IMG/VR virus record: IMGVR_UViG_3300027779_002889 | Coordinates: 1-50,770 of that record | DNA length: 50,770 bases | Strand: one strand, 5' to 3' | Source: a virus | The notes under the pieces: model-generated | What the model saw: the letters and a program-made list of their open reading frames with translations, nothing else | The model's database searches: none | What the model was told of the DNA's origin: nothing | Translations under genes and position numbers: made by a program | In this document: positions 6,100 to 34,322 of the stretch, piece after piece | How positions within the stretch are numbered: the stretch's first letter is position 1 | Layout: the number at the start of each line of letters is the position of its first letter

Positions 6100-7131
6100 A
6101 TGACATTTTTGAGTAGAGCAAAAACTATTGCGGACAATCCATATGCTTCGATTGCGGTCGAAGGAATAGATACTGCAGACATAGATGAATATGTGGATAC
6201 AGGATGTTACACTTTAAATGCACTTTTATCAGGAGATATAAGGGGTGGGTTACCATCTAATAAGATTACCGCTATTGCGGGAGAAAGTTCAACAGGTAAA
6301 ACTTTTTTCACACTTGGTATATGTAAACATTTTCTTGATAATAATATAGAAAGTAGTGTTATATATTTTGAAAGTGAATCTGCAGTAACAAAAGCGATGT
6401 TGGATGCCAGAGAAGTTCCTACTGATAGATTTTTAGTTATTCCTGTAACTACAGTTCAAGAATTTGCAAATCAATGTTCAAAAATCATAGCAGAATATGA
6501 AAAGGAATCAGAAAAAACGCCATTGTTAATGTGTCTAGACTCTTTGGGCAATTTGTCAACTACTAAAGAGATGGAAGACACTACTAGTGGTTCTGATAAA
6601 AGAGATATGACAAGAGCCCCCGCTTTAAAAGGAGCTTTTAGAGTTTTAACTTTGAGACTTGCAAGAGCGGGAATTCCTATGATTGTAACAAATCATACTT
6701 ATGATCAAATAGGGTCGATGTTTCCTACTAAAGAAATGGGTGGAGGATCTGGTTTAAAATATGCAGCATCAACTATATTATTTTTGTCAAAGAAAAAGGA
6801 AAAGGTTGGTAACGTAGTAGTTGGTAATATCATACATTGTAAAACACATAAATCTAGATTAACAAAAGAGAATAGAATAGTGGATGTTCTTTTAACATAT
6901 GATAAAGGATTAGATAGATATTATGGACTACTTGACATTGCAGAAAAGTATGGTATAATAAAGAAGGTATCAAATAGATATGAATTTCCAGATGGAGGAA
7001 AACATTATGGAAAGGCGGTTTATGCAGATCCAGACAAGTTTTTTACAGATGATATTATGGATGGTATAAATGCAGCTTGCAAAAAAGAATTTTTATATGG
7101 TCAAGTGGGAGTAACAGAATTAGATGGATAG
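6100..7131 (+). CDS. uvsX: UvsX recombinase (RecA family)
   Basis: The phage RecA-like strand-exchange protein, used in recombination-dependent replication and repair. Walker A is GESSTGKT at residues 61-68, and Walker B is represented by [12 protein letters not shown] (about 143-154). A DNA-binding loop region with [12 protein letters not shown] follows at about 213-224. At 343 residues it is a little shorter than T4 UvsX (391). The 3' end overlaps gp41 by eight bases, an arrangement that couples recombinase and helicase expression. A sigma70-like promoter sequence lies inside the gene at 6932-6959. Confidence 0.95.
6932..6959 (+). promoter_or_regulatory. Internal sigma70-like promoter in uvsX
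   Basis: TTGACA at 6932-6937 and TATAAT at 6954-6959 with a 16-base spacer lie within the uvsX coding region, about 165 bases before the gp41 start. The hexamers are perfect, but codon constraint could explain them; activity is unproven. It could give gp41 extra early transcription. Confidence 0.4.
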
Positions 7132-8548
7132 AGTTGAACATTTAATATTAAAAAATCTATTATATAATGAAACGTATACTCGCAAAGTTATACCTTATCT
7201 TAAAGGTGTATTTTTTGAAGATAAAGGAGAAAAGGCACTTTTTGAAGAATTGCATTCATTTATTTCGACTTATAATAATCTCCCAACAAAAGAGGCAGTT
7301 GTAATTAATTTGAGTGAAAGGACAGATCTTCATGAAGATGATTATAATAGTTGTGTTAAACTTGTTGGATTTTTAGAAGAAAATAAAGAAGAAATATCTG
7401 ATGAGGAGTGGTTACTTAATACTACAGAATCATTTTGTCAAGATAAATCCATTTATAATGCTATTATGGAAAGTGTTCAAATCATTAGTCCTAATAGTAA
7501 AACTAAAGAAGATAAAGGAAAGATACCAGAAATTCTTACAGATGCTTTAGCAGTAACATTTGATCCTCATATTGGTCATGATTATATAAATGATAGTAAT
7601 GAACGTTATGATTTTTATCATAAGGTTGAGGAAAAGGTCCCTTTTGATTTAGAATATTTTAATAAGATTACAAAGGGTGGATTATCAAAAAAGACATTAA
7701 ATATTTGTTTGGCTGGTACAGGAGTTGGTAAATCTTTATTCATGTGTCATGTTGCGGCTAATTGTTTAAATGAAAGTAAAAATGTATTATATATTACATT
7801 AGAAATGGCAGAAGAAAAGATTGCAATGAGAATTGATGCGAATCTTTTAAATGTTTCTATGGATGATATTTCTGATTTACCAAAGGCTATTTTTGATCAA
7901 AAAGTAGAAAAGCTGAAAAATAAGGCTAAAGGAACATTAATTATAAAAGAATATCCAACTGCCGCAGCAGGAGCCCAACATTTTAGAAGTCTTCTGAATG
8001 AATTGGCTTTAAAAAGAGATTTTAAACCAGATATTATTTTTATTGATTATTTAAATATATGTACTTCATCTAGAATCAAAGCAGGAGCATATGTAAATTC
8101 TTATTCATATATTAAATCTATTGCGGAAGAATTAAGAGGTCTTGCCGTTGAATATAATGTTCCTATTGTTTCTGCTACACAAACTACAAGAAGTGGATTT
8201 ACTTCTACAGATATTGGATTGGAAGATACGTCTGAATCTTTTGGTTTACCTGCCACGGCTGATTTTATGTTTGCCATAATATCTACAGAAGAGCTTGAAG
8301 AATTGGGTCAATTTTTAGTTAAGCAATTAAAAAATAGATATAGCGACCCAACATATTATAAAAGATTTATGATTGGGGTGGATAGAACAAAAATGAGACT
8401 GTTTGATCTTGAAGAGTCTGCACAAACAGGTATTACTGATATTGTTGATAATAGCAAAAAAGTTAAAAAAACAGATGAATATGATGATGTTCCTTCCACA
8501 GAGAATACTGAAAAAAAGAAAGACTTTGACAAGTTTAATTTTAACTAA
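7124..8548 (+). CDS. 41: Replicative DNA helicase gp41 (DnaB family)
   Basis: The hexameric 5'-3' helicase that partners with primase gp61 at the fork. It has a helical N-terminal domain, then the RecA-type core with Walker A AGTGVGKS (about 196-203), [15 protein letters not shown] (DnaB motif H1a region) and Walker B FIDYLNIC (about 306). [11 protein letters not shown] further on fits the DnaB motif with Q and an arginine contact. Its length (474) matches T4 gp41 (475). The last ~40 residues are Lys/Asp/Glu-rich. It starts inside uvsX (8-base overlap). The primase gene is not adjacent as in T4 but lies 17 kb downstream at 25303. Confidence 0.95.
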
Positions 8549-8551
8549 ATA
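8544..8551 (+). promoter_or_regulatory. Possible late promoter (CTAAATA variant) overlapping a sigma70-like element
   Basis: ACTAAATA lies about 33 bases before the ATG at 8585 and resembles late-promoter variants described for marine T4-like phages. A TTGACA at 8526-8531 followed 18 bases later by TATAGC could also act as a weak sigma70 promoter. This is the only gap between the replication block and the capsid-tag block, so a promoter is expected here. Confidence 0.4.
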
Positions 8552-8584
8552 TAGCAAATACATATTACTATAACGGAGACTATT

Positions 8585-9106
8585 ATGTGGTTTACTGAGA
8601 AATCAAAATTTGAAAATTTAAATAACGCTGTTTTGTCGGTAGTTAATCCTTCCGCAAACCCACCTGAGACAGATACACCTGAAGACGTTCAACCGGAAAT
8701 GACACCAGAAGAACAAAGAATTCCTGATGAAAATTCAGAAGTTTTACAAGAAACCGTAGATGAGGGCCTAGAATTACAAGTAAAGATGGCATTGTCTGAT
8801 ATTAATGTAGAAGGTAAATGGAAAAAAGGAAAACTTCATGTTCCAGCGAAACATGTAGATAAAGTCGATAAGCATTTAAGAAGTCAAGGAGTTAAGGATA
8901 CTTTTCATATCATGGGTGAAGAGGAAAATAAGTCAAACTTCGCTGATGCAATAGCGAAATTTAAAAAGCGTGGTGGAAAAGTTGAAAAATTACCACAGTC
9001 TCCTAATTATGGTAATTATGGTCATGGAATGACTAGAAAAGATAAAGAAGATGCTCAAAAAATTATAAAGTATCGAGATGAAAAAGGATATGCACTAAAA
9101 AAATGA
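8585..9106 (+). CDS. Uncharacterised acidic/lysine-rich protein, first gene of the tag cassette
   Basis: A 173-residue protein I do not recognise. After a short N-terminal stretch it has an acidic, proline-rich segment (about residues 20-60), then a basic domain with EGKWKKGKLHVPAKHVDKV (about 77-95) and a C-terminal Gly/Tyr/Lys-rich part. The GKW..GKLHV...V segment has a weaker counterpart in the next gene (around its residues 295-330), hinting at a shared module. It does not start with the MKTFK-type leader of its neighbours. GGAG at 8575-8578 sets the start, and its stop overlaps the next ATG (ATGA). Confidence 0.7.
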   Translation: MWFTEKSKFENLNNAVLSVVNPSANPPETDTPEDVQPEMTPEEQRIPDENSEVLQETVDEGLELQVKMALSDINVEGKWKKGKLHVPAKHVDKVDKHLRSQGVKDTFHIMGEEENKSNFADAIAKFKKRGGKVEKLPQSPNYGNYGHGMTRKDKEDAQKIIKYRDEKGYALKK

Positions 9107-10890
9107 AAACATTTAAATCTTATCAATCAGTAGAACTTGAAGAAGGTTCATCAGATACAACAGATATGTATGCATTGATGGTGAAGGGGTTGAAATCTAT
9201 GCCTGGTTCACCAAAACAAAAAGAGATCATCAAGCAGATAAATGTCATACGAAAAAGAATGGGTATGAAATTGATGAAAGAAGATTTCAATTTTGATGAA
9301 GCATCAAAATTACCTCCCCATCTCGCAAAGTTCTTTGACAAAAAAGGTAATCCAAAACCAGAAGTTGCAGCACGCATGAGAAAAGGGGCGAGACTACGAG
9401 ATGTAGAAATAACAGATGTAACGCCTAAGGGATATGGTCCTAAAGAAGAATTGGAAGTTAAAGAAGGATGGAAAAAAGGTAAACATAAAATTACTGATGA
9501 TAAAGGAAACATAGTTAGTACTCACAGTTCTGGAGCCAAAGCAGAACGAGAACAACAGAAACTTATGCAAACAGGTGATCACAAAAAACTAACTGTTGCA
9601 CAGGTAGGATCAACAAGCATATGGAAAAATGAAGAAGCGGATCTTGAAGAAGGTGATGATCGAAGGCAACGAAGTGAAAGAGAAGCAGTAAACAAAATTT
9701 CAAAAAAAGAATCTGAATGGGCGAAATCAAAACGTCTCGATAAAGAGATGGAAAACAAGTATGAAAAAATACATCAAGAACGAGATAAACGTTATATAGA
9801 GCAACAGAAAAACCAAAAGAAAGAAGAAGTTCAACAAGAAGGACATAAGGTAAAATGTCCAGAATGTAAAGGTAAAGGTTGTGATCATTGTGATGATAAA
9901 GGATTTCATATTGAAGAAGTTAAGCTTGAGGAAATGCCCAATAGAAGAAATATGGAAAGGATTAATTCTCTATTGAAGAAACATTCTGGAAAATTTAAAT
10001 GGAGAGATGATACATTACATGTTGAAAAGGGAATAGAGCGTGGTGTTAAGAGTACACTTTCTAAAGCTAAAAAGGATGTGCATGACCCGTTAGCTCATCA
10101 TCCAACAATTAAAGTTTCTGATAATCCAATGAGAGAAAATAAAAATTATAAACAATTTGAGAAAAATAAAAGTAATGTTTCAAAAAAGGATTCTATGAAA
10201 GAGGTTGAAAAATCCAATAAAGCCCAAGCAGGAATTGAAGAAGCACGAAAACCATATGACATATATCATCCAACTTATTCTGCAGCAGTTCAACACGCAA
10301 AAGATCACACCAAAAAAGCTCATGGTTTTGATGTAGATCAAGATTCATGGGACAGAGAAGTTACATTTGGGCAAAGAAAACCATCACCCGGCAAAACCGC
10401 TATCAAAAAAGTCAATTTAACAAAGGATGGAAAATCTGTTAAAAAAAGATTACACATGCAGGTTTATGGAATGGATAGTGGTAAATATGAATTAAACAAG
10501 TATGTTGAAGACTATGACGGCCCAATTGAAAATATCGCAAAACAAATATTAACAGAAGGCAATGGTCTTACTAAAGCAGATATTGCAGCGATGGCTAAAA
10601 AATTACGAGTACCACTTATTGATATTATAAATTGGGATCATGGTCCTGGTGCAGGAGGAAAAGAATGGCTCATTACATTAAGAGGTGGTCAACATTTAGA
10701 ATATATGGAAAAAAGTGGAATAGTAAAAATCCCTAAGGCAGCAAATCCTGATATGAAGGCAATGAAGGATTATTTAAAAAATATGAAAAGTATTGGTGGA
10801 GAAGCACCAGGAAAAATCGCAGATGTAAAATTAGGGAAAAATTATCTCATCGGCGGATTAGAAAATGCCTTCAAACTCCTTTCTAGATAA
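9103..10890 (+). CDS. Capsid-tag family protein with a CxxC zinc-type motif
   Basis: A 595-residue, very polar protein beginning MKTFKSYQSVELEEG, a variant of the leader shared by ten genes here and similar to the T4 internal-protein capsid-targeting sequence. L-E-E before G fits the L/I-x-E rule of prohead protease gp21. A cysteine cluster CPECKGKGCDHCDDKG (about residues 250-265) resembles half of a DnaJ-type zinc finger. The C-terminal ~130 residues (from about 460) look globular. Long Lys/Glu stretches contain many further L-x-E sites, so it might be processed into several pieces. Function unknown; it may be an internal head or core protein. The start overlaps the previous stop as ATGA. 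Confidence 0.75.
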   Translation: MKTFKSYQSVELEEGSSDTTDMYALMVKGLKSMPGSPKQKEIIKQINVIRKRMGMKLMKEDFNFDEASKLPPHLAKFFDKKGNPKPEVAARMRKGARLRDVEITDVTPKGYGPKEELEVKEGWKKGKHKITDDKGNIVSTHSSGAKAEREQQKLMQTGDHKKLTVAQVGSTSIWKNEEADLEEGDDRRQRSEREAVNKISKKESEWAKSKRLDKEMENKYEKIHQERDKRYIEQQKNQKKEEVQQEGHKVKCPECKGKGCDHCDDKGFHIEEVKLEEMPNRRNMERINSLLKKHSGKFKWRDDTLHVEKGIERGVKSTLSKAKKDVHDPLAHHPTIKVSDNPMRENKNYKQFEKNKSNVSKKDSMKEVEKSNKAQAGIEEARKPYDIYHPTYSAAVQHAKDHTKKAHGFDVDQDSWDREVTFGQRKPSPGKTAIKKVNLTKDGKSVKKRLHMQVYGMDSGKYELNKYVEDYDGPIENIAKQILTEGNGLTKADIAAMAKKLRVPLIDIINWDHGPGAGGKEWLITLRGGQHLEYMEKSGIVKIPKAANPDMKAMKDYLKNMKSIGGEAPGKIADVKLGKNYLIGGLENAFKLLSR

Positions 10891-10911
10891 CTCAAGAGAC
10901 AATTTTATAAA

Positions 10912-10919
10912 CATAAATA
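10912..10919 (+). promoter_or_regulatory. Late-type promoter CATAAATA
   Basis: CATAAATA fits the NATAAATA late motif described for marine T4-like phages and lies 34 bases upstream of the ATG at 10954, in a 63-base gap that also holds the ribosome site AGGAT. This placement suggests late transcription of the capsid-tag genes from 10954 onward. Confidence 0.55.
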
Positions 10920-10953
10920 GTTATAATCTTTAATTATAGCAGGATATTGAGTT

Positions 10954-12969
10954 ATGCCACAATCATTTAATCAATTTATAAGGGAAGAGCCAGGCCCTTA
11001 TAGAGATAAAGACTCCAAATCAAAAGACCCACACGCATATCATGTAGATCAACATGCCCATCACACAAAGCAGCAAAAAGATAAGAAACATCAAGGATTT
11101 AAACAATTAAGAAGAGGTGTAATATATAAAAGTAATAGTGGTTCTTGGGTTGGTGTTAAAAATGGTGAAAATAAAAGAGAATATTTTAATGATGCAATCC
11201 ATGCTACAGCTTGGGTTAATGGAACTCATCCGACAGGTGGTGAAGAAATTCAAAAATTAGATAGAAAAACCCAACAGAAAGATGATAAAGCTGAAAAACA
11301 TGGTTATAGTAAAGATGAAGTCCCACACGATTTTCGACATCCCTCTGAATCAAAAAAGAAAAGAGTAAAATCTGACACTCAAAATGCAAAATCTGTAGTT
11401 ACAAAATCAGAGAAAAAACCAACAGTAAAAGAAAAAACATCCGATCAAAAAAATAAACATAGACAAATTGAAACAGTAAGTATTGAAGATGCACAAAATA
11501 GTGATAGAGTGAATGAACCAATTGGTAAAGGAAAAGACTTAGAAGAATTTTTAGGTAATGTTAAATTTGCCACCCAGGGCCCTCCACCAGATAGATTTAA
11601 AATTCCAAATAATTTGCGTGGAAAAAAAGTGTCTCCTAGAGTTTTTGATCTTATTGAAAGAATGGCAAATTGTGAAGCCTCTGGTGCGGCGTCAGGAAAA
11701 TATCAGAATTATTCAGATGTTAAGGGTGGTGCTGGTAAAATCTTTGCTCAAGCGGGAGAATTGATGACAATGGCTATGACAACAATGGATGATAAAGATG
11801 CTGATCAATTTAGAGATGTTTTAAAAAAATATAATAAAGATTTAGAAGACACATACCCTGATTATAAAAAAGATAAGAAGGGGAAGATAAAAAGGAAAAA
11901 AGTAATTGATGATTCTTGGGTTGATGCGGCACACGGAAATAGAAAAGCAATATTTAATTATTTGAAAAAAGAACATGGAGAAGGTTCTGAAATAGAGTTT
12001 GGTTGTTGGGATACAAAAGAAGATGTTGAGGCTATGTGGGGTGAAGGTTATGATGAAAATAAAGGATATTCAACAGATGTTTTTTTCAGAGTTAAAGGAA
12101 AGGACGGCAGTTTTCTTCATGAAGTTTCATTAAAAAAATCTACACTTGTAAACTTTTTAAATTCTGGTACAGGAAAATTTGAAGCTTGGGATGATCAGTT
12201 ACCAGACCCCATTAAAGCATCTTTATTTGGGGAAAATCAAAGAAATAGATTAGTAGAGGCGGTAACTAAACATTTTGATAAAATTAATCCCAATGAACCA
12301 CCTTTATCAGACTTAATGAAGTCAAAAAAAGTTAGTGATTTAAAAGAACTGATAACAAACAAGAAAGAGGGCGGAAAGTGGGATTTAACTAGAGATAAAT
12401 CAAAAGTATTGTTGACAGCATTAAATCAAGTAGCGAAGGCTGGTGATGGAGAAGCTAAACAATTTCTTAAAGAACATAGACAAGTTAGCCAAGATTATCA
12501 AGATGCGGCAATAACGGCTATACTAGAAAATCCTAAATTAACAGAAGGAATGATGACTGATATCAAAGGTAATTTTCCATTGAAGGGCGTTTCTGAAAGA
12601 GAAGAAGTTATGGCAATTGGGGATCTTTCTTTAGATCCACATACAATGAAACATATATTTGGTACAGATGATTATAGTAAAATAAGTGAACGTTTTGAAC
12701 CATTGAAAGATGAAAAAGGAAACCCTTATATTGGATATAATGTTGAAGGTTCAAAAGAAGTTATTCCTGTTGCAGGTATTGGAATTAGAGAAGATGGGAA
12801 TGGATATGGTGGACAATTTAAATTTGAAATGGTATTACACAAAGGTTTTGCTGAACATCTAAAGAATGCTAATGACGCAATTTATGGAAATAAAAAACAA
12901 GATGAACAGGTTAAATATAAATCTATAGCACACGGTATTCATGAAATCCTTCAAACAAATAATACATGA
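10954..12969 (+). CDS. Large capsid-tag family protein; weak PD-(D/E)xK-like motif
   Basis: A 671-residue protein starting MPQSFNQFIREEPGP. SFNQFIRE aligns with the leader of its neighbours and I-R-E before E fits a gp21 cut. Residues about 20-190 are His/Lys-rich and probably disordered, with a small module GSWVGVKNG at about 63-71. The central part (200-450) is globular. YSTDVFF followed by FLHEVSLKKS (about 372-397) has the D...E-x-x-x-K spacing seen in PD-(D/E)xK nucleases, but this is a loose resemblance. The C-terminal 200 residues show nothing I recognise. A late-type promoter CATAAATA precedes it and its end overlaps the next gene by 29 bases. It may be an injected head protein. Confidence 0.72.
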   Translation: MPQSFNQFIREEPGPYRDKDSKSKDPHAYHVDQHAHHTKQQKDKKHQGFKQLRRGVIYKSNSGSWVGVKNGENKREYFNDAIHATAWVNGTHPTGGEEIQKLDRKTQQKDDKAEKHGYSKDEVPHDFRHPSESKKKRVKSDTQNAKSVVTKSEKKPTVKEKTSDQKNKHRQIETVSIEDAQNSDRVNEPIGKGKDLEEFLGNVKFATQGPPPDRFKIPNNLRGKKVSPRVFDLIERMANCEASGAASGKYQNYSDVKGGAGKIFAQAGELMTMAMTTMDDKDADQFRDVLKKYNKDLEDTYPDYKKDKKGKIKRKKVIDDSWVDAAHGNRKAIFNYLKKEHGEGSEIEFGCWDTKEDVEAMWGEGYDENKGYSTDVFFRVKGKDGSFLHEVSLKKSTLVNFLNSGTGKFEAWDDQLPDPIKASLFGENQRNRLVEAVTKHFDKINPNEPPLSDLMKSKKVSDLKELITNKKEGGKWDLTRDKSKVLLTALNQVAKAGDGEAKQFLKEHRQVSQDYQDAAITAILENPKLTEGMMTDIKGNFPLKGVSEREEVMAIGDLSLDPHTMKHIFGTDDYSKISERFEPLKDEKGNPYIGYNVEGSKEVIPVAGIGIREDGNGYGGQFKFEMVLHKGFAEHLKNANDAIYGNKKQDEQVKYKSIAHGIHEILQTNNT

Positions 12970-14572
12970 AAATGATCTTGCGGCAACACTTTCTACTGAT
13001 GTAAGAAATGCGGTCAAACGAGGTGGTGGTAAGATATATCAAATTGGTGGTGCGGTAAGAGATGAAATTTTAGGAAAAGTATCAAAAGATTTAGATCTTT
13101 TAGTGGTTGGAATAGAATTAGAAGCTTTAGGTAAAATTTTAGAACCATTTGGAAAGGTAAATCTGGTTGGAAAATCTTTTGGTATTATTAAGTATACTCC
13201 AGAAGGTAGCTCCGGAGAAATTGATATTTCAATTCCTAGAATAGATTCAAAGAGTACGGGAAAGGGACATAAGGATTTTGAAGTCAAATTAGGAAAGGGA
13301 ATTACACTTCAACAAGATCAATTAAGAAGAGATTTTTGGATTAATGCTCTAGCAAAAGATTTAGATACAGGAAAAGTAATTGATATAGGTCGAAAAGGTA
13401 TGACGGATTTGAAGAAAAAAGAAATCCGTATGATTAGTCCAGTTGCATTTGAAGAAGATCCATTGAGAATGTTGCGTGCAGTACAGTTTGCGGCAAGATT
13501 TGAATTTAAGATTGAATCAAAAACATTTGAAGAAATAAAGAAAAACGCAAAGTCTATATCAACAGTTTCATCAGAGAGATTTCAAGAAGAGTTTCGTAAG
13601 ATGTTTACTAAAGCAGAGAAACCTAGTATTGGAATTAAATTATTATTTGATACAGGATTAATTGATCATATTTTACCACAATCAAATTTAAGAAAAATTG
13701 ATCTTGCATCAATTGATAAACTTGATAAAAAAGCATTTCCCGCATTTATGGGAATGTTAATGAATGGATATGGTACAAATGCAGGAAAAGAGGTTATAAG
13801 TAAAATGAGATTATCAAATAATGATGCTGAAGCAGTTCAAAGTGTAGTCACATATACAGATAACTCTCCATTTTTAGAAAAAAATGATTTTAAACTTGTT
13901 CAATTTATAAAAAATGTTGATAATAAAGGTATCGCAAATATAGATGAATATTTAAAGGTAAAGAATAGACCTACTCTTTCTAGTAGACTTAGAAGAATGA
14001 CTGTGACATCAATTAAAGATCTTTCAATTGGAGGAAGAGATTTAATGGGAATAGGACTGAAAGGGATACAAGTAGGAGATGCTCTTAATTATGCTCTTGA
14101 ATTTGCAGTTAATACTGGTAAAAATAATAAATTAGAATTATTGAGAGCAATTAAAAATAAATATAACATTAAAGAAGAAGTCAAGGTTGAAAGTGTTTTG
14201 AAGTATATGTTATCTTCAAAAGATATGGGAGCATTATCAAAAATGAGAGATGGTGTTGTGACGAAAAATTCAGATATGAAACCAATAAAAGATTTACATA
14301 TAACTCTTGCAGCTGGGCCTGAATGGAAAAAATTGAGAAAAAGATTATTTCATAATTCTTTACCAGACCCAAATTTTAAATTAGAGTTTGAAAAACCAAA
14401 GAAAGTGAAGTTTGGTGGAAGAGTATCGTGGTATACGAAAGTAAAACAGCAAAAACAACTCAAGGATTATGTTACTGATTTAATACAAGCAAATCCAGAT
14501 CCTAAGAGAATTTTTCATGTATCACTTGCAAATAAAACAGGTAATTCAGGAGATTCAGTTGCGAACATTTAA
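12941..14572 (+). CDS. tRNA nucleotidyltransferase / poly(A) polymerase family, with capsid-tag leader
   Basis: A class II CCA-adding or poly(A)-polymerase-type enzyme that would add nucleotides to RNA 3' ends. Evidence: IGGAVRD (residues 35-41), catalytic D50 and D52 in KDLDLLV, RRDFWINALA (129-138), EEDPLRMLRAVQFAARF (about 171-187) and the following helical neck. No HD phosphohydrolase domain is seen. The C-terminal ~130 residues (from about 415) form a basic extra domain. The N terminus, MKSFKQIIHEN, precedes the enzyme core and matches the leader shared by its neighbours, with I-H-E as a likely gp21 cut. This suggests packaging in the head, which is unusual for this family. CCA versus poly(A) specificity cannot be read by eye. 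Confidence 0.85.
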   Translation: MKSFKQIIHENDLAATLSTDVRNAVKRGGGKIYQIGGAVRDEILGKVSKDLDLLVVGIELEALGKILEPFGKVNLVGKSFGIIKYTPEGSSGEIDISIPRIDSKSTGKGHKDFEVKLGKGITLQQDQLRRDFWINALAKDLDTGKVIDIGRKGMTDLKKKEIRMISPVAFEEDPLRMLRAVQFAARFEFKIESKTFEEIKKNAKSISTVSSERFQEEFRKMFTKAEKPSIGIKLLFDTGLIDHILPQSNLRKIDLASIDKLDKKAFPAFMGMLMNGYGTNAGKEVISKMRLSNNDAEAVQSVVTYTDNSPFLEKNDFKLVQFIKNVDNKGIANIDEYLKVKNRPTLSSRLRRMTVTSIKDLSIGGRDLMGIGLKGIQVGDALNYALEFAVNTGKNNKLELLRAIKNKYNIKEEVKVESVLKYMLSSKDMGALSKMRDGVVTKNSDMKPIKDLHITLAAGPEWKKLRKRLFHNSLPDPNFKLEFEKPKKVKFGGRVSWYTKVKQQKQLKDYVTDLIQANPDPKRIFHVSLANKTGNSGDSVANI

Positions 14573-14828
14573 ACAACATCTAAAAGAAAAAGTAGAATAT
14601 TATTTGGACACATCTAAGGATAATACTGAGAAATATGTAGCATATGATGGTAGCTCTTGGCATACAGGTAGAGTTGGTGTGAAAGGAGAAAATATGTTTA
14701 TAAAGCTCGTGGCTACACATGGAAAAAATAGTTATTTTGAACGTGCCAAGTTAAAAAAGGTAACACCAGAGAAACTTGAAAAAGAAGCTGGTACAAGAGT
14801 GGATTTTAAAAAACTTTATAAAAGATGA
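14559..14828 (+). CDS. Small capsid-tag family protein, 89 residues
   Basis: I start this gene at TTG 14559 and not at the upstream ATG 14517: AGGAG at 14548-14552 is correctly spaced for 14559, and the resulting N terminus MRTFKQHLKEK reproduces the leader of its neighbours, with L-K-E as the likely gp21 site. The remaining ~78 residues are basic, with alternating hydrophobic residues and WHTGRVGVKGENMFIKL (about 35-51), suggesting a small beta-barrel or SH3-like fold. No family is recognised. It overlaps the nucleotidyltransferase gene by 14 bases and its stop overlaps the next ATG, so all three are translationally linked. Confidence 0.75.
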   Translation: MRTFKQHLKEKVEYYLDTSKDNTEKYVAYDGSSWHTGRVGVKGENMFIKLVATHGKNSYFERAKLKKVTPEKLEKEAGTRVDFKKLYKR

Positions 14829-15760
14829 AAACATTTAAAGGATATCTAAAAGAAGACCCGCCAGCTTGGCAAAGAAGCGCTTCTGAAAAAATATTTGAAT
14901 TTCAACAAATTCAGTATATGCAAATTCCATTAACATCTAGCACAATGGAATGGATTTTTCAAGTACAATTACCAAGAGCAACGGTGTTTCATGTTACAAA
15001 TGGTATTGGTTTAGATAAGTTAAAGAAATTACAGAATAGGAAAAAATCAATTTCTGCTTTTTTTAATATGGACGCCGGTACTATGGAACATGGTATACAA
15101 GGTGGGGGCGGACTTATTGTAGAATTAGATGCAAATATTATTATGTCAAGTAAGGGTGATTTGATGAGTATGCCAGATAAAACCGGCAGACGATGGGTTG
15201 AATTGATGAACATAGACAAAAAAAAGACTATGCATAAAGAACTTGAAAAGATGTTGATAGACCTTGCAATAAAACATGATCCAAAAACTAAAGAACTCAT
15301 AAAAATAGAACCAGATATAGGATTGGGAGCTTGGTGGCATTTACAAGGAGCCTTTAAAGATGATGGTAAAAAGATGTCTTTGATAATTGCAGATTATATT
15401 GATGGTGTAAATGTAATTCTCAAGAAGCATAAAAAAGATATTCAAGGAGCAGTTCATGGATATTATGTCAGAAGGGGAACAGTAGCAGTTAAGCATCCCT
15501 CTGGTCGTATGGTAGGAGGAGATTCAGAATTATCAGAATGGAATGTATACGATGAACAAGTAGTCGATAAAATTAAAATTATAAAAGTTCATACTTTTAA
15601 TACGAAAACTAGAGAAACAGATTGGATAAAAAAATCAGTAATTCCAAGATTAGGTAAAATTCCTCATACACATTGGGTGAATGGAGCTAGAGACTTATCA
15701 AATTATGTTACTAAAATTGCACAAACAGAAGTACAAGCCTTGAGGAGAAGTAAAGGTTGA
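14825..15760 (+). CDS. Capsid-tag family protein, possible ADP-ribosyltransferase (paralogue 1)
   Basis: A 311-residue protein starting MKTFKGYLKED, the shared leader with L-K-E before D. It is a paralogue of the next gene: both contain TVFHV (H56 here), KKSISAFF (S75/S77), a GGGGLIVELDA strand, GRRWVEL and YDEQVVDKIKIIKV (D243/E244). The order H, S-x-S, then E followed by a beta strand recalls the catalytic order of ADP-ribosyltransferases, and the last part resembles the equivalent segment of T4 Alt. Alt is itself a packaged, injected ADP-ribosyltransferase acting on host RNA polymerase. The function is inferred from motif order alone. ATGA overlap with the previous gene. Confidence 0.7.
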   Translation: MKTFKGYLKEDPPAWQRSASEKIFEFQQIQYMQIPLTSSTMEWIFQVQLPRATVFHVTNGIGLDKLKKLQNRKKSISAFFNMDAGTMEHGIQGGGGLIVELDANIIMSSKGDLMSMPDKTGRRWVELMNIDKKKTMHKELEKMLIDLAIKHDPKTKELIKIEPDIGLGAWWHLQGAFKDDGKKMSLIIADYIDGVNVILKKHKKDIQGAVHGYYVRRGTVAVKHPSGRMVGGDSELSEWNVYDEQVVDKIKIIKVHTFNTKTRETDWIKKSVIPRLGKIPHTHWVNGARDLSNYVTKIAQTEVQALRRSKG

Positions 15761-16683
15761 AAACCTATCTTGATTTAGTTTTAACAGAATTTGCGCAAAC
15801 AAGTGCGTCAAATCTTGTGTTTGATGTTGCAAGTCAAGGGAGAGCCTCTAGTGCTTTAAAGATTCCTATTTCAGGGCCCATGTTTAAAAGGATATGGCCA
15901 GATACGATACGTACAACAGTTTTTCATGTGCTGAGGGCAGAAAACTTATATGAATTAAAAAAACTTGAGGGGGGAAAGAGGTCCATCTCAGCATTTTTCA
16001 CAATGATGTCTCGTTATTTGGAAGGTGGTATAGCTGCAGGAGGCGGCGTTGTTGCAGAACTGGATGCCGATATTATTGTATCTGCCAGAGATGATATAAT
16101 GAGTACTGTAGATACAGCGGGTAGAAGATGGGTTGAAATGTCTTGGTTTGCTAATGCACAAAGGGGTGGAACGGGACCCAAATTTGCAGTAGTAGAACGT
16201 GAACTTAATGTTTTAATAAGAGAACTTGTATTAAAACATCTTAGTCCAATACTGGGAAAAGATAGAGTGCGAAGAGAATTTGAATTTGAACTTTGGAATG
16301 ACATGAAAAAACACCTGTCTGGAGATGGTAGAGCATTAAGATTGGTAATAAAAGATTATTTTGATGGTGTAGAGAAAATTATTAAAAAGAATTCAGAGGT
16401 AATGAGTAGTATATTTTATGGTTATGCAAAATCAAAAAGACAAACAGATAGTTCATGGGATGAACAAATAGTCAATAATATTAAGATTAAAAAAATTCAT
16501 TATATACCAATTAAAGTAGATAATGAAGAAGAAGATGGAAATATTGAAAATGAAGAACAGCAAGAAAATATAGATGCATTTGTTGCAAAATACAGGATAC
16601 CATCAAAGAGATGGGAATATTCTTCGGAGTTAGAAATTTATACAAGAGAAGTTGTTGCAAAAGAAATTGGAAGGAAAATTTGA
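15757..16683 (+). CDS. Capsid-tag family protein, possible ADP-ribosyltransferase (paralogue 2)
   Basis: A 308-residue paralogue of the preceding product. The start is TTG 15757, overlapping the previous stop (TTGA), with GAGGAG at 15742-15747 and AAAGG closer in. The leader MKTYLDLVLTE ends in L-T-E before F, again the gp21 pattern. Matching positions are TVFHV (H57), KRSISAFF (S76/S78), GGGVVAELDA, GRRWVEM and SWDEQIVNNIKIKKI (E236). It differs from paralogue 1 in the middle (about 135-185) and has an acidic segment rich in Glu/Asn/Asp near 255-275. An ADP-ribosyltransferase-like fold is my inference; an entirely different fold cannot be excluded. Two diverged copies suggest different targets. 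Confidence 0.7.
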   Translation: MKTYLDLVLTEFAQTSASNLVFDVASQGRASSALKIPISGPMFKRIWPDTIRTTVFHVLRAENLYELKKLEGGKRSISAFFTMMSRYLEGGIAAGGGVVAELDADIIVSARDDIMSTVDTAGRRWVEMSWFANAQRGGTGPKFAVVERELNVLIRELVLKHLSPILGKDRVRREFEFELWNDMKKHLSGDGRALRLVIKDYFDGVEKIIKKNSEVMSSIFYGYAKSKRQTDSSWDEQIVNNIKIKKIHYIPIKVDNEEEDGNIENEEQQENIDAFVAKYRIPSKRWEYSSELEIYTREVVAKEIGRKI

Positions 16684-16916
16684 TGAAAACTTTTAAAGAC
16701 CATTTAATTGAGGGTATGCCAAGAGGTATGATAGTTGCATTTGATGCACCTAAAGGTGAAGTTCAAATTTATAGAAAAGGATTAAAAGGATTTTATGGTG
16801 ATGCATGGAACAAATTTGATTTTTCAGCAAAAGATGTAAAAGAACTTAGAGACAAATTAAAAGATATGGGGGTTAATCCAGATAAACCTTCTTTTGGGGA
16901 ATTACCAAAAAAATGA
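16683..16916 (+). CDS. Small capsid-tag family protein, 77 residues
   Basis: The ATG at 16683, with AAGGA a few bases upstream, gives the leader MKTFKDHLIEG (L-I-E before G, a textbook gp21 site); a longer frame from 16611 lies inside the previous gene and would hide it. The rest is a small domain with GMIVAFDAPKGEVQIYRKG and a C-terminal helix followed by a Pro-rich end. No family recognised. Its start overlaps the preceding TGA by one base and its stop overlaps the next ATG, so it is a middle member of a tightly coupled string. It resembles T4 internal proteins in being small, basic and leader-bearing. Confidence 0.75.
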   Translation: MKTFKDHLIEGMPRGMIVAFDAPKGEVQIYRKGLKGFYGDAWNKFDFSAKDVKELRDKLKDMGVNPDKPSFGELPKK

Positions 16917-18145
16917 AAACGTTTAGAGACATATTACTTATTGAAGCAAAAGCTGGTAAAAATCTACATTTAGAACACATAGAAGATGAAGTTTTAAATG
17001 GTGGAGTGGCTGGGACTAGAGGTTCAATTAATTTTATGCAATCACTTAGAGATATGTTGGCGGGATCTTCAACGAAAAATACCTACATTACCACTAAATG
17101 GGACGGTGCACCTGCGGTTTTTTGTGGAATTAATCCTGATAATGGTAAATTTTTTGTTGGATCGAAAAGCATTTTCAATAAAACACCTAAAATAAATTAC
17201 ACACCACAAGATATTGATGATAATCATCCTCCTGGACTTGCATCAAAGTTAAAAGTTGCTCTGGAACATTTACCAAAATTGGGAATTAGCGGGGTATTAC
17301 AGGGAGATATGATGTTTGCTAAAGAAGATTTGCTAATTAAAACCATAGAAGGAGAGAGATATATCACTTTTCATCCAAATACTATAGTTTATGCGGTTCC
17401 TTTGGGTTCTGATTTGGGAAAAACGATATTAAACTCAAAAATGGGCATTGTTTTTCATACGGAATACAAAGGTACAAAATTAGAAGATATGAAATCGTCT
17501 TTCAATATAAATATTAACAGGTTATTAAAGAATAAAGATATCTGGTTTAGAGATGCAGAATTTACTGATGCATCCGGTACAGCAAGCTTCACAGCAAGGG
17601 ACACGGAGACTATTACTAAAATTCTTTCTTCTGTAGGAAGAACTTTTCAAAACATATCAGCGAATACACTAAACATGATAGCTGATGATTCTGAAATTAA
17701 TACAATTATAAAAACTTTTAATAATAGCAAAATAAAAACAGGACAACAAATAAGAAATACAAGAACACATGTGACACAATTGATAAGATATATAGGAAAT
17801 AAATACGATAAAGATATTAATAAATTAAAAACTGATGCATCTAAAGATAAAAAAACACAACGGAAAAATGAGTTTTTGAAGTTCTTCCTACAGAAGAAAG
17901 CTGATTTAGAAAAAATATTCGATTTAATGAATATGTTAATTGATGCTAAAATGATGATAATATCTAAATTGGAAAATATGGAACAATTAACGCAAACTTT
18001 TGTTAAAGATGGTGCTGGTTATAAAGTAACTGCTCCAGAGGGGTTTGTGGCGGTAGATCAAATAAAAGGCGGAGCAGTCAAATTGGTTGACCGGCTAGAA
18101 TTTTCAAGAAATAATTTTAATGTAGAACTAAAGAATTGGAGCTAA
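16913..18145 (+). CDS. Capsid-tag family protein with ligase-like KWDG motif
   Basis: A 410-residue protein with leader MKTFRDILLIEAKAG (L-I-E before A). A conserved-looking core follows: TTKWDGAPAVFCGI (K62-W-D-G65), GKFFVGSKSIFNK (about 78-90), GVLQGDMMF (127-135) and ERYITFHPNTIVYAV (about 147-161). K-x-D-G is motif I of nucleotidyltransferase-fold DNA/RNA ligases, where the lysine is adenylated, and LQGDMM is in the right place for the motif III strand, though ligases normally have E where this has D. I recall similar uncharacterised proteins in marine T4-like phages. Residues 230-410 are mostly helical and Lys-rich. Ligase or capping-like activity is a hypothesis. ATGA overlap with the previous gene. 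Confidence 0.75.
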   Translation: MKTFRDILLIEAKAGKNLHLEHIEDEVLNGGVAGTRGSINFMQSLRDMLAGSSTKNTYITTKWDGAPAVFCGINPDNGKFFVGSKSIFNKTPKINYTPQDIDDNHPPGLASKLKVALEHLPKLGISGVLQGDMMFAKEDLLIKTIEGERYITFHPNTIVYAVPLGSDLGKTILNSKMGIVFHTEYKGTKLEDMKSSFNININRLLKNKDIWFRDAEFTDASGTASFTARDTETITKILSSVGRTFQNISANTLNMIADDSEINTIIKTFNNSKIKTGQQIRNTRTHVTQLIRYIGNKYDKDINKLKTDASKDKKTQRKNEFLKFFLQKKADLEKIFDLMNMLIDAKMMIISKLENMEQLTQTFVKDGAGYKVTAPEGFVAVDQIKGGAVKLVDRLEFSRNNFNVELKNWS

Positions 18146-18148
18146 TAA

Positions 18149-19042
18149 ATGGATAGTTTAACACAAACGTCTTATAAAGTGATGATAGACGAAGAAGAGG
18201 GTATGTCCACAAAATTAAGACAGCTGGTTATGGCTGGATTAATTCAAGACAAAAAGGACTTACCTTATTTTAAGTCAGCACTGAAAAAAATTAAAGGCGG
18301 GACAATAACAACCGTTGTGGAAAGACAAATTTTAATAAATGTTCTTCAACAATTTTTAGGTATGGTTGATGAAGCTCCTGAATTCTTTAATTTGTTAAGA
18401 AGACAATTATCAAAGAGTAAGAATAAGAAAAAAGAAGTAAAGAAGGAGGAGTTTATATTAGCCTTTGAACAAGTTGCGAAAAGACGGGCGGATAAAAGAA
18501 ATTCAGAAACGTCTCCACATAAACAAGGAAGTTCTGATGAAGGTACTCCTGGACAAGTAAATGAGGATGACCAAGAACGGGCACGGGATGCGTGGTATAA
18601 GGGGGATGATCATTTTGCACAACACAAAAAAGCAAATCCAACAGTACACGCAAAGGTTCCTGTAAAGAAAAAGGGAATGGATATACCTAAAGGACATCTA
18701 CCTCCAGATAAGCAAGAAAGAGATCGTGCTGCGTTTTATGCGAAAAAAGAAGGTGTAGAAATACCAGATAATGTGGGACATTCAACAAAAATAAAAAAGA
18801 AGACAGGTACTCCTACTACTACTGTTGTGAAAGATCCTGACTATAAAGAAAGTGTAGATTATGGATTTACTTCATTTAAAGAATGGCGAGCACAGAAATC
18901 GGAAGACGTTCAACCGGATGCTGCAGATGATATGAAGAAAGAAAAAGAAAAAAAGAAAAGAGAAGCGATGGATAAAGAAAATACCTGGAGAAGGGCACAA
19001 AGAGCAAATCGTAAAGCTTCCGGAATTTTCAGACAGGATTGA
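18149..19042 (+). CDS. Uncharacterised highly charged protein of the cassette
   Basis: A 297-residue protein without the standard leader at its N terminus (MDSLTQTSYKVMIDEEEG). Residues about 20-100 look helical and globular (LRQLVMAGLIQDKKDLPYF), and the rest is a long Lys/Glu/Asp-rich, probably disordered tail. Near the C terminus YGFTSFKEWRAQKSE (about 244-258) resembles the tag seen at the start of the neighbours, so a fused or internal tag is possible. The C-terminal tail is basic, WRRAQRANRKASGI. Spacing to both neighbours is three bases. Function unknown; a role in the prohead core or as packaged protein would fit the context. Confidence 0.65.
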   Translation: MDSLTQTSYKVMIDEEEGMSTKLRQLVMAGLIQDKKDLPYFKSALKKIKGGTITTVVERQILINVLQQFLGMVDEAPEFFNLLRRQLSKSKNKKKEVKKEEFILAFEQVAKRRADKRNSETSPHKQGSSDEGTPGQVNEDDQERARDAWYKGDDHFAQHKKANPTVHAKVPVKKKGMDIPKGHLPPDKQERDRAAFYAKKEGVEIPDNVGHSTKIKKKTGTPTTTVVKDPDYKESVDYGFTSFKEWRAQKSEDVQPDAADDMKKEKEKKKREAMDKENTWRRAQRANRKASGIFRQD

Positions 19043-19045
19043 AAT

Positions 19046-19516
19046 ATGGGTAAAGGATTTTCTGATTATTTGAAAAAAGAAGACGTTAAAGTTAATGAAA
19101 TGTCTAAAGAATTGCTTTATAAAGCTGCAAGGAAAGCAGAAGTTCAAGGAAGAGAGCCTAACCCTACTGGTGCAGATTATAGCATGAAGAGCCCTGAAAT
19201 AAGAAAAAAACGAAGAGGACAAGCTGTAAAATTTGTTAAAGGAATGGCTAAAAAAGAATTTGGTGAAAAGAAAGAAGGATCTTTTGCAGATTTTAAATCA
19301 TTCTTTGAGGGAGTGAATAAGAATCAAAATTATGGAGTTGTAAAAATAAAAGGAAAACCAGAACGAATTCCTCAACATTCTTCAGGTGAAATTGTTTTCC
19401 TTGGCAATAAAAAGGTAGCATCAAAACATTTAAAACAACTTAAAAAAGATGGCAATAACGGGTATTTGACTTTTGGTATGCATCAGAAACTTGGAGATAA
19501 GGTTAAGGGAAAATGA
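19046..19516 (+). CDS. Capsid-tag-like basic protein, 156 residues
   Basis: The N terminus MGKGFSDYLKKEDVKVNE is a looser version of the shared leader (F-S-D-Y-L-K-K-E), lacking a strict L/I-x-E at that point. Internally, FADFKSFFEG (about residues 81-90) looks like a second tag copy, so the gene may be a fusion of two tag-bearing units. The C-terminal half contains VVKIKGKPERIPQHSSGE and a Lys-rich helix. The protein is strongly basic, as expected for DNA-associated internal head proteins. No family is recognised. The stop overlaps the next ATG (ATGA). Confidence 0.65.
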   Translation: MGKGFSDYLKKEDVKVNEMSKELLYKAARKAEVQGREPNPTGADYSMKSPEIRKKRRGQAVKFVKGMAKKEFGEKKEGSFADFKSFFEGVNKNQNYGVVKIKGKPERIPQHSSGEIVFLGNKKVASKHLKQLKKDGNNGYLTFGMHQKLGDKVKGK

Positions 19517-20904
19517 AAACATATAAAAATCTCATAAAAGAAGCAAAAGGTAAGACAGGAGTATTTGTTTTTGGTAGATTTAATCCACCAACAACTGGTC
19601 ATGGTCGATTGTTGGAAGGGGCAAGTAATGTAGCAAAAAGATATAATACTGAATTACATGTTTTTGGAAGTCAATCTCATGATTCTAAAAAGAATCCATT
19701 GACTAATCAACAAAAAATGAAATATATGAAGGAAATGTTTCCTAATTTTGTTAAAACTTTTTCCAGAGATATTAATATTAAAGATGCATTAGGGGCAGCA
19801 GTACAATTAAATGATCAGTATGATAATTTATGTATGGTTGTAGGAAGTGATAGAGTTGCAGATTTTAAAAAATTGTTAGAACAATATAATGGTAAAAAAT
19901 CAAGACATGGATATTATGAATTTGATTACATTAAAGTTCATAGTGCAGGAACAAGAGATCCAGATGCAGAAGGAGTGTCAGGAATGTCTGCTTCTAAAAT
20001 GAGAAAAGCGGCATCAGAAAATGATATAGAATCATTTAAAAAGGGATTACCAGAGGCAATGTCAGATAGATCCGCGATGAAAATGTTGAAGGATGTTAGA
20101 AAGGGATTGAATTTAAGAGAGGCAATGTTTGATAGAGAATGGCCAATTAGACCTGAAAGACTTACAATTGATAAACCAAAAAATGATAATGAATATGTTT
20201 ATTTAAATTATGAAACAGAATATTTTTCAAATATGCCGTTAGTTGAAGAATGTTTCAAAGAACTTAGAGCTATTATATTATCACAATCAAAACATAATGT
20301 TTATGTCGTTGAGGCAATGAAAGAAACGGATAAATTAATTAGTAATATGTTATTGTTTGAACATGGAAAAGATGGATTAGAAGATGGTATAAAATATTCT
20401 GTGAAAAAAATAGATAAACTTTTTGAAAATATAGAACACGATTATAATTGTACAAAGGGAGATATTTTCAACAGACCATTTTTATATCAAATTTTAGAAT
20501 CTTTATCATGGGGTCCACATCCTGGTAAAATGGATACATCAGACACACAAGAAAATGGCAGATTTGGACAACATGTGGATCAGCGTGGGCCGTTGGAATG
20601 GGGAACTCCTGAGATGGTGAAATCTTATGCTGGTGATACTCCAGGACAAGATGCAGAAAAACTTCTTTATGCTACATATAAGTATAAAATGCAAAGAGAT
20701 GTTACGGGAGAGGTTGATGGATATGGAACTGTTGAATTAGCACAAGAAGAAGGCCCAGTAGCAAAAGTAAAAAAAGAATATGCTAAAAAATATAAGGCTT
20801 TAATATCAGATAGAAAAGTAAATGTTGGTGGAGCAAGAGTAGATTATGCGAATAAAACATTAAAATCAGCACAAAAATATAATTCAATTAGAATAGGACA
20901 ATAA
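19513..20904 (+). CDS. Capsid-tag family nucleotidylyltransferase (cytidylyltransferase/NMNAT-like)
   Basis: The leader MKTYKNLIKEA is nearly the T4 internal-protein sequence, with I-K-E before A. It is followed at once by a nucleotidylyltransferase core: VFVFGRFNPPTTGH (residues 17-30, a T-x-G-H form of the HxGH motif), VVGSDRV (about 115-121) and GMSASKMRKA (about 157-166), matching the second conserved motif of NMN/nicotinate-mononucleotide and pantetheine-phosphate adenylyltransferases and cytidylyltransferases. Residues 190-463 are an extra region of unknown fold. Its substrate cannot be told; NAD synthesis from NMN is one possibility, attractive because two neighbours may use NAD. Packaging in the head is inferred from the leader. 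Confidence 0.82.
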   Translation: MKTYKNLIKEAKGKTGVFVFGRFNPPTTGHGRLLEGASNVAKRYNTELHVFGSQSHDSKKNPLTNQQKMKYMKEMFPNFVKTFSRDINIKDALGAAVQLNDQYDNLCMVVGSDRVADFKKLLEQYNGKKSRHGYYEFDYIKVHSAGTRDPDAEGVSGMSASKMRKAASENDIESFKKGLPEAMSDRSAMKMLKDVRKGLNLREAMFDREWPIRPERLTIDKPKNDNEYVYLNYETEYFSNMPLVEECFKELRAIILSQSKHNVYVVEAMKETDKLISNMLLFEHGKDGLEDGIKYSVKKIDKLFENIEHDYNCTKGDIFNRPFLYQILESLSWGPHPGKMDTSDTQENGRFGQHVDQRGPLEWGTPEMVKSYAGDTPGQDAEKLLYATYKYKMQRDVTGEVDGYGTVELAQEEGPVAKVKKEYAKKYKALISDRKVNVGGARVDYANKTLKSAQKYNSIRIGQ

Positions 20905-22289: not shown

Positions 22290-22901
22290 ATGCCTTTATG
22301 GGGAACAACACACGACTCTGCGGCAAATAAACCAAAATGGTTGCCAGATTCTGCAGATAGTCCTTATGATAAAACTAAGGTCTATGCAACTGAATCCGGC
22401 TGGGTGGCACGTGGAGCCGCAACTGGTAACGGAAATGTAAACGCCGATCCAGAAATTTTAGTCGCACTTGGCGGACTCGCTGGTGCAACTGCAGCAACTG
22501 GATTGAAACATCCAACAATGACAAATCATAGAATAGTTACTTCTGCAGATCATGGTACTTCAAATAATATCGTATTTGAAATTACCTACGATGAATCTGT
22601 AACTTATGAAGCTGGATCAGCAACAACTCTAGTACTTACAGCTGGAGCTGGAGGAAATAGAACAGCAACTTTAACACATGTTAATGGAGTAGCATTAGTA
22701 GATGGTTCTGCTGGAAACGTGTTGAGATTTACTGCAACAAGTGCTCAAGCAACAACTTATGATCTTGCAAATAATGTACAGATGGGTAATCATGCAGATT
22801 TATCTGATACAATAACTGGAACTGCCTTAGAAAATGCATCAGGAAAATTCACTTCTGCAGTTAAAACTGCAATTGGATATTCACAAATTACAATTGCGTA
22901 A
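22290..22901 (+). CDS. Virion structural protein, T4-like marine phage type
   Basis: A 203-residue Ala/Thr/Gly-rich protein whose N-terminal part has NKPKWLPDSADSPYDKTKVY and ESGWV, a pattern I associate with abundant structural proteins of marine T4-like phages. The rest is beta-rich with TLVLTAGAGGNRTATLTHV, compatible with an immunoglobulin-like or jelly-roll decoration domain. Low lysine and high Thr/Ala contrast with the upstream cassette, marking a change of functional block. AGGAG at about 22280 precedes the ATG. A head-decoration or tail role is possible; which cannot be decided here. Confidence 0.72.
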   Translation: MPLWGTTHDSAANKPKWLPDSADSPYDKTKVYATESGWVARGAATGNGNVNADPEILVALGGLAGATAATGLKHPTMTNHRIVTSADHGTSNNIVFEITYDESVTYEAGSATTLVLTAGAGGNRTATLTHVNGVALVDGSAGNVLRFTATSAQATTYDLANNVQMGNHADLSDTITGTALENASGKFTSAVKTAIGYSQITIA

Positions 22902-22916
22902 TAGGATATTGAAATA

Positions 22917-23210
22917 ATGGCTGATAAAAAAATAACAGACTTGACAGCTGCGACAGCGGCAACTAAAGATGATCTAGTTATGGTTGTAGATGATCCAGCT
23001 GGGGCATCTCCAAGTAATAAAAAGATTACAATACAGAACTTTTTTAAAGTTCCGTCAAGTAATACTGGAAATGTTACTGCATACACAAATACTACTGCAG
23101 GACAAATGGCATGGGTGACGGATGGAAACGCAGGAGCTGCGTCATTGGCTGTATTTGATGGTACAAACTGGAAAGTTGTAGCATACGGGTCAACCATCAG
23201 TCACAATTAA
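22917..23210 (+). CDS. Small structural protein with fibre-type N-terminal module
   Basis: A 97-residue protein starting KKITDLTAATAATKDDLVMV, then DDPAGASPSNKKITIQNFF. This I-T-D-L-T...D-x-x-x-V-V-D-D...K-I-T module is common at the start of phage fibre and neck proteins, where it mediates attachment or trimerisation. The C-terminal half (MAWVTDGNAGAASLAVFDGT) looks like a short beta domain also common in fibre proteins. It lies 15 bases after the previous structural gene. Probably a small fibre or virion accessory protein. Confidence 0.65.
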   Translation: MADKKITDLTAATAATKDDLVMVVDDPAGASPSNKKITIQNFFKVPSSNTGNVTAYTNTTAGQMAWVTDGNAGAASLAVFDGTNWKVVAYGSTISHN

Positions 23211-23231
23211 CTTTTTAGATAATGGAATATT

Positions 23232-34314: not shown

Positions 34315-34322
34315 GATATATT

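Follow-up and report, generated by a model that had tools for sequence, protein, structure and literature searches.

A leader shared by ten genes between gp41 and gp61

The 50,770-base virus record IMGVR_UViG_3300027779_002889, the whole of which was analysed and is here termed the 'window', encodes homologues of gp43, UvsX, gp41 and gp61, and therefore belongs to a T4-like phage. The slot between its gp41 and gp61 homologues contains, at positions 9103-20904, a cassette of 11 genes; all but one of them open with a short leader that resembles the capsid-targeting sequence of the T4 internal proteins IPI-IPIII. The borders of the slot and the genes of the cassette are as follows:

7124-8548, + strand: gp41-like helicase, left border of the slot (PHROG 19, 4.4e-121)
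9103-10890, + strand: leader gene, 595 amino acids, no family found; leader MKTFKSYQSVELEE, widely spaced, with L-x-E at residues 12-14
10954-12969, + strand: leader gene, 671 amino acids; leader MPQSFNQFIRE, shifted by one residue
12941-14572, + strand: leader gene, predicted CCA-adding/poly(A) polymerase-type nucleotidyltransferase; leader MKSFKQIIHE
14559-14828, + strand: leader gene, 89 amino acids; leader MRTFKQHLKE; TTG start with AGGAG upstream of it
14825-15760, + strand: leader gene, 311 amino acids, weakly ADP-ribosyltransferase-fold-like; leader MKTFKGYLKE
15757-16683, + strand: leader gene, paralogue of 14825; TTG start; leader MKTYLDLVLTE
16683-16916, + strand: leader gene, 77 amino acids; leader MKTFKDHLIE; start 24 codons inside a longer open reading frame (ORF)
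16913-18145, + strand: leader gene, DUF6267, modelled as an RNA/DNA-ligase-type covalent nucleotidyltransferase; leader MKTFRDILLIE
18149-19042, + strand: gene without an N-terminal leader
19046-19516, + strand: leader gene, 156 amino acids; loose leader MGKGFSDYLKKE
19513-20904, + strand: leader gene, cytidylyltransferase/NMNAT-like putative nucleotidylyltransferase; leader MKTYKNLIKE
25303-26310, + strand: gp61-like primase, right border of the slot (PHROG 47, DNA primase, 5.3e-81)

The original prediction for this locus had described ten consecutive-type genes whose products begin with variants of an M-K-T-F/Y-K-x-x-L/I-x-E consensus. All ten starts lie in frame at the positions that it named, and L/I-x-E ends nine of the ten leaders, with 19046 as the exception that it had already singled out; however, the span holds an eleventh gene (18149-19042) that lacks a leader, and the consensus, exact in some leaders, is departed from in others. 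The same leaders were said to sit on unrelated proteins. Their products do carry different Pfam domains or none, but 14825 and 15757 are paralogues (33% identical), so that the ten are not all unrelated. Whole-gene paralogy as the main cause of the shared leader was tested and rejected. Pfam and PHROG profile searches assigned no family to five leader proteins (9103, 10954, 14559, 16683 and 19046), and PADLOC returned none for any of the ten at E values up to 0.05.

A sister contig, G001 (its DUF6267 protein is 97% identical to that of the window), reads MKTFKSYQETELVE at the counterpart of the widely spaced 9103 leader, with the L and the E retained, and MSQRFSEYLKKE at the counterpart of the loose 19046 leader. 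The family of 10954 carries the leader in 6 of 7 members, from seven loci including that of the window, some of which are overlapping stretches of one contig. By eye, leader-like stretches also occur away from N termini, near the C terminus of the 18149-19042 product (YGFTSFKEWRAQKSE) and internally in the 19046-19516 product (SFADFKSFFEG). The published accounts drawn upon here describe an additional cut near the C terminus of T4 Alt, and C-terminal tags are therefore possible.

The frequency of the leader was counted by means of a regular expression (M, one to three residues, F/Y, two residues, L/I/V/M/F/Y/H/Q/K, L/I/V/M/F, one or two residues, E) scanned over mechanical ORFs, in which starts up to 60 codons inside an ORF were allowed and 9103, with its wider spacing, was scored as a miss. 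A first, stricter expression gave only 5 matches in the window because shifted and longer leaders were missed; the counting expression was widened after that first try on the window, and was therefore chosen with the window in view. The original prediction would have been undermined by a leader equally frequent on other genes. Instead, matches were found in 9/18 slot genes of the window and in 0/37 others (p 7.6e-6), in 10/18 versus 1/72 in the sister contig (p 7.6e-8) and, as a weaker enrichment, in 3/21 versus 2/192 in the Methylophilales phage Melnitz-3 (p 0.007). In phages HTVC008M and Syn9, slot enrichment of the pattern does not reach significance.

Retention within families points in the same direction. 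The leader is kept in 84 of the 88 DUF6267 family members found, in 25/29 of the 14825 family and in all nine of the 16683 family, counts that include near copies and overlapping stretches of one contig; the relatives' loci came from viral contigs, of which the first scan covered the best 80 of at least 596, and outside annotated records genes were taken as mechanical ORFs. The short pattern tolerates variation, and some of its matches elsewhere are clearly fortuitous, all of which would suit a chance resemblance among lysine-rich, AT-rich N termini. Set against the near absence of matches on the other genes of the window and the sister contig, and against the retention in the DUF6267 and 14825 families, that explanation is extremely improbable.

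Correspondence with the T4 capsid-targeting sequence

In the T4 IPIII leader, residues 4 and 7 govern targeting and residues 8 and 10 govern processing, and the prohead protease gp21 cleaves after L/I-x-E (PMC9026906; this and the other published statements used here draw on portions of that review and of PMC3037559, PMC10665884, PMC9602691, PMC5694885 and PMC3012670). The comparison used a T4 leader that matched records annotated ipIII. The window's leaders share with IPI-IPIII a length of about ten residues, an aromatic residue at position 4 and usually at 7, a hydrophobic residue at 8 and E at 10, at the N termini of proteins that differ in their mature parts. They differ from them in that some are one or more residues longer, and in that ten genes stand in one block, several encoding large enzymes, compared with three in T4, so that the set is, as had been proposed, both larger and more enzymatic.

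Across two unrelated families (DUF6267 and 14825), columns 4 (F/Y) and 10 (E) have the lowest entropy of leader positions 3-11, followed by columns 8 (L/I) and 7 (in most cases Y or F), whereas columns 5 and 6 are free to change; the best-kept positions agree with T4 targeting genetics, which supports the likeness to the T4 sequence that had been claimed. The residue that follows the leader's E in 96 distinct leaders is A (33), S (17), D (12) or G (10) in 72/96 cases; these leaders were selected by the regular expression, but the residue after E was left free by it. The gp23 maturation site of T4 is FLTE/A, with E at residue 65, and the aligned sites are LLAE/S in the sister contig, FLSE/A in Melnitz-3, FLGE/I in HTVC008M, ILTE/T in Syn9 and LLTE/A in S-CREM2. 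On these alignments, the predicted end of the leader looks like the site at which gp23 is matured in related phages.

Residues 1-12 of the 14825 structure model fall under pLDDT 50, and the leaders of 16913, 12941 and 19513 lie outside the Pfam domains, since those domains begin at residues 17, 33 and 19, respectively; the cytidylyltransferase model PHROG 3041 aligns from residue 1, that is, across the leader. As for the protease, the search for a gp21 homologue that had been suggested found none in the window, but recovered one in 9/11 related records, comprising the sister contig and eight more.

On this evidence, it is very probable that these ten genes share a capsid-targeting sequence like that of the T4 internal proteins, with packaging, gp21 trimming and injection as follows. 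During prohead assembly, the aromatic residues 4 and 7 would dock each protein to the scaffold core; gp21 would then cut after L/I-x-E, at the same type of site as in gp23; and the freed proteins would be kept in the head alongside the DNA and would pass into the host when it is infected. The cargo (nucleotide- and RNA-type enzymes, together with proteins of unassigned role) would act before any phage gene expression, and the gp41-gp61 slot would serve as a 'loading dock' at which cargo genes are gained and lost. That T4-like phages may load varied proteins through such a sequence has already been suggested in a review (PMC9026906).

A different use of the same residues must also be weighed, in which the leader is a shared N-terminal helix that binds a common cytoplasmic partner or the neighbouring replication machinery, or is a gene-start element spread by recombination. 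The position of the cassette between the replication genes gp41 and gp61, and the somewhat similar N termini of UvsX, would fit such a use; residue-level conservation, which broadly tracks the T4 targeting and cleavage positions, and the origin of four leader-bearing virion proteins of phage S-CREM2 (described below) from four separate places in its genome do not, and we regard it as highly unlikely.

Leader-bearing proteins in purified virions

Published mass spectrometry of virions from three cyanophages lends outside support to packaging. Sullivan et al. (PMC3037559) found a putative cytidylyltransferase, T4-GC190, in virions of S-SM1, for which T4-GC15 was the other core protein reported; the gene is SSM1_190, and its product starts MKKFSAFLNEAERS, that is, with the leader MKKFSAFLNEA. 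The virion table of S-CREM2 lists 52 proteins (PMC10665884). At annotated starts, 5/219 coding sequences of that phage carry the leader pattern, of which 4/5 are virion proteins versus 48/214 of the others (p 0.012); a looser pattern, p2, gave 5/12, a weaker signal. The four are a SAM hydrolase, an APH-like kinase, a cytidylyltransferase (gp154) and a protein of unassigned function, encoded at four separate genome places. In S-SCSM1, the virion protein gp91, an NMNAT, starts MKSFLQFLKEAAES and carries the leader, and the gp41-gp61 slot is rich in virion proteins generally (7/17 coding sequences so labelled versus 41/265 elsewhere, p 0.014; 48 labels were counted here, whereas the published figure is 45). 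When S-CREM2 and S-SCSM1 are pooled, with pattern matches at the annotated starts of S-SCSM1 judged by eye, leader-pattern coding sequences are virion proteins in 6/10 cases and others in 94/491 (p 0.006).

Thus, virion-detected proteins of the cytidylyltransferase/NMNAT type carry the leader in all three phages, in data that establish presence in virions rather than location inside the head. They share both protein kind and leader with window gene 19513, a link made through the family name, a blastp family shared with the Syn9 homologue, and the N terminus; the portions of the source papers drawn on differ from the present account in making no tie to a targeting sequence. Because relatives of one leader enzyme occur in purified particles of other phages, phages of this kind probably inject a ready-made enzyme kit along with their DNA.

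It might be argued that the leader is a prohead-core docking tag on proteins that are mainly head-assembly parts, later degraded or expelled, rather than on injected effectors. In T4, according to the accounts drawn upon, gp21 fragments the core proteins gp22, gp67 and gp68, and the pieces exit the head; several cassette proteins have no assigned function. We consider this unlikely: leader-bearing cytidylyltransferase/NMNAT-type proteins are retained in the purified virions of three phages, and a role in assembly is not apparent for the enzyme domains of several cargos.

Several observations weigh against capsid targeting and injection. We infer packaging of the window's own proteins, their cleavage and their injection, of which cleavage and injection are unobserved, and the virion data come from the published proteomes of other phages, cyanophages that are not close relatives of the window phage. 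The authors of the S-CREM2 study note that such enzymes could be contaminants of caesium chloride purification (PMC10665884). In S-SCSM1, six of the seven slot virion proteins lack the leader, and over the whole record the virion label falls on 2/5 leader-pattern coding sequences versus 46/277 others (p 0.20, not significant); one of the two virion matches, gp31 (MPFKNFLWDE), may be chance, whereas gp30, despite its good leader (MKTFKQFMSES), is not labelled a virion protein. The regular expression matched 1/11 slot genes versus 6/204 others in Syn9 (p 0.31) and 0/18 versus 2/177 in HTVC008M, with no enrichment, and the DUF6267 proteins of HTVC008M, Syn9 and S-SM1 lack a full leader; slot genes of Melnitz-3, Syn9 and HTVC008M do include near-miss starts such as MKSFKDFQNVNE and MTRYTKTMAEA. 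UvsX N termini (MNFLQDVVKE and similar, in Syn9, HTVC008M, S-CREM2 and S-SCSM1) fit looser leader patterns; these matches are chance and warn of false positives. Agreement with the T4 positions is good, not perfect, because conservation comparable to that of position 7 is also seen at position 3 in the 14825 family and at position 9 in DUF6267. Finally, the late-promoter motif TATAAATA had 7 matches, against 10.5 expected, with none just upstream of the cassette, a result that is uninformative either way.

The window's cassette is best read as an enlarged, enzyme-carrying version of T4 capsid targeting; what is new is its scale (ten genes in a block), its enzymatic cargo and the leader link to cyanophage virion enzymes. 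The titles and abstract openings searched gave no earlier connection between the targeting sequence and cyanophage enzymes, and the name DUF6267 had no match in the literature searched. If this account is true, a simple N-terminal pattern would help to predict from sequence which proteins T4-like phages inject, including phages that cannot be cultivated; enzymes that recur in cyanophage virions, otherwise possible contaminants, would acquire a mechanism; and one genome slot could be named where cargo is swapped.

Other packaged proteins offer further comparisons, again from the portions of the literature drawn upon. T4 Alt, a packaged ADP-ribosyltransferase that is ejected, is shortened at its N terminus by six residues, at ITE; 14825 and 15757 may likewise place an ADP-ribosyltransferase fold behind a cleavable-type leader, but the fold likeness is weak, with DarT and Tpt1 as its best rows. 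The giant phages SPN3US and phiKZ also trim the N termini of many packaged proteins, inner-head and ejected ones, by protease, although the propeptides of SPN3US often exceed 100 residues and the cut motif of phiKZ is S/A-x-E rather than L/I-x-E.

Two further S-CREM2 virion proteins (OR473000) were noted in passing. A Cas9-like protein (7704-10313, minus strand) contains, some 20 residues from its start, the leader-like stretch RFASFMAEA; if a CRISPR-type nuclease were indeed packaged, that would be striking. The protein encoded beside the cytidylyltransferase (126012-126725) is nucleotidyltransferase-like by eye (GGNANYNYTPYSDIDLHLV) and has no leader.

Proposed cargo enzymes, relatives and neighbouring genes

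Two of the cargo proteins can be assigned from sequence. The product of 12941 matches Pfam PF01743 (7e-19), with PF12627 also above the cut-off, and PHROG 2244 (1.9e-59), and aligns from residue 19 with the CCA-adding enzyme of PDB entry 6ibp (6e-22), the alignment including GGAVRDEILGKVSKDLD. A GG and DxD motif is the hallmark of the head domain in CCA-adding enzymes and class II tRNA nucleotidyltransferases; the product has such a head domain, with both GG and DxD, and an RNA-binding domain, and is accordingly annotated as a putative CCA-adding-type enzyme. The 19513 product, with matches to PF01467 (1.2e-5) and PHROG 3041 (1.2e-67), is by the same kind of evidence a predicted cytidylyltransferase/NMNAT-like protein.

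The product of 16913 belongs to PF19782 (DUF6267; 1.2e-116), and its structure model favours, without proving, an RNA-ligase-like fold class. All 50 rows listed for the model are ligases, the first 13 of them RNA ligases, with a best Z of 7.8 (1xdn, 5.1 A, 189 aligned) among rows preselected by Foldseek (best E 0.095). RNA ligase superfamily members carry the lysine motif KxDG and, further on, E-G with a second lysine motif after it. The best-conserved parts of the 16913 product resemble these: a nearly invariant KWDG (residues 62-65), an invariant EG (376-377) and VKLVDR (389-394). The reading falls short of proof because Z is below 8, the region of the C-terminal motifs (residues 357-410) is of poor model quality and profile searches showed no ligase: a DUF6267 search with 33 members, at E up to 1, listed 25 of 28 Pfam families, none of these 25 a ligase family, and PDB sequence searches with DUF6267 returned no ligase and nothing useful. 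DUF6267 nevertheless becomes a testable ligase candidate.

For 14825 and 15757, the model of the former weakly suggests a resemblance to ADP-ribosyltransferases. Its fold rows include DarT1 (Z 5.2, 4.9 A, 153 aligned), DarT (4.5), Tpt1 (4.2) and TreTu (3.5), alongside an unrelated Hsp70 domain at Z 4.4, with a best Foldseek E of 0.64; against a viral fold library the best E was 0.19, and a PolyVal ADP-ribosyltransferase appeared weakly at rank 6. PDB sequence searches with the 14825 family gave nothing useful, and tblastn of 14825 against the phage collection gave no match at E 0.01.

Relatives of the cassette extend the list of possible cargo. The best match in the phage collection to the window's DUF6267 protein is that of Melnitz-3 (49% identical), and the protein of the Pelagibacter phage HTVC008M is 41% identical (rows sampled down the ranking). 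DUF6267-type and cytidylyltransferase-type genes also occupy the gp41-gp61 slot of Melnitz-3, HTVC008M, Syn9 and S-SM1, the S-SM1 DUF6267 having been recognized by eye. Leaders in relatives also occur on a P-loop/zeta-toxin-type kinase, a 5'-nucleotidase-type phosphatase, a RimK-like ATP-grasp protein and others, and a further leader-bearing protein in relatives is nucleotidyltransferase-like by eye. Together, the ligase-like, CCA-adding and ADP-ribosyltransferase/Tpt1-fold-like proteins of the window, with the kinase, phosphatase and further nucleotidyltransferase-like protein of its relatives, resemble the kinase-phosphatase-ligase-CCA set that mends cleaved tRNAs; the block could on that ground be a virion-packaged kit for RNA-end repair and modification which, arriving together with the DNA, would undo tRNA-cutting or NAD-depleting host defences in the first minutes of infection, ahead of phage gene expression, a proposal that we regard as unlikely.

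Cargo turnover between close relatives is indicated by an extra leader gene in the sister contig (loci L106-L109, reverse strand), where 44443-44649 encodes a 68-residue protein, MITFSQYLEEANSKY, between the counterparts of window genes 14559 and 14825; its counterpart is absent from the window. By eye, a small stretch like KGFKQLRRGVIYKSNSGSW of the 10954-12969 product reappears, somewhat changed, at the C-terminal end of 14825-type proteins (L016, 2050-3393; L017, 1913-3259), and also in a leader protein of locus L018, from 3083. The recurrence of this stretch in different cargo genes suggests domain swapping among them. Outside the slot, the RimK-like ATP-grasp protein of Melnitz-3 (MZ577098, 82-1131) starts MTQKFSQFITEEP, close to the MPQSFNQFIREEP of window gene 10954.

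Downstream of the cassette, window positions 22290-24600 hold genes that match PHROGs 11617, 407 and 18642/2086. The first, at 22290, resembles by eye SSM1_195 of S-SM1 and gp95 of S-SCSM1, the latter labelled a virion protein, and by that likeness further parts of the slot may be virion-related. Beyond the slot, a long run of genes at 27034-40044 resembles, by eye, genes for the modification of sugars and surfaces; a ThyX-like protein is encoded at 34323.

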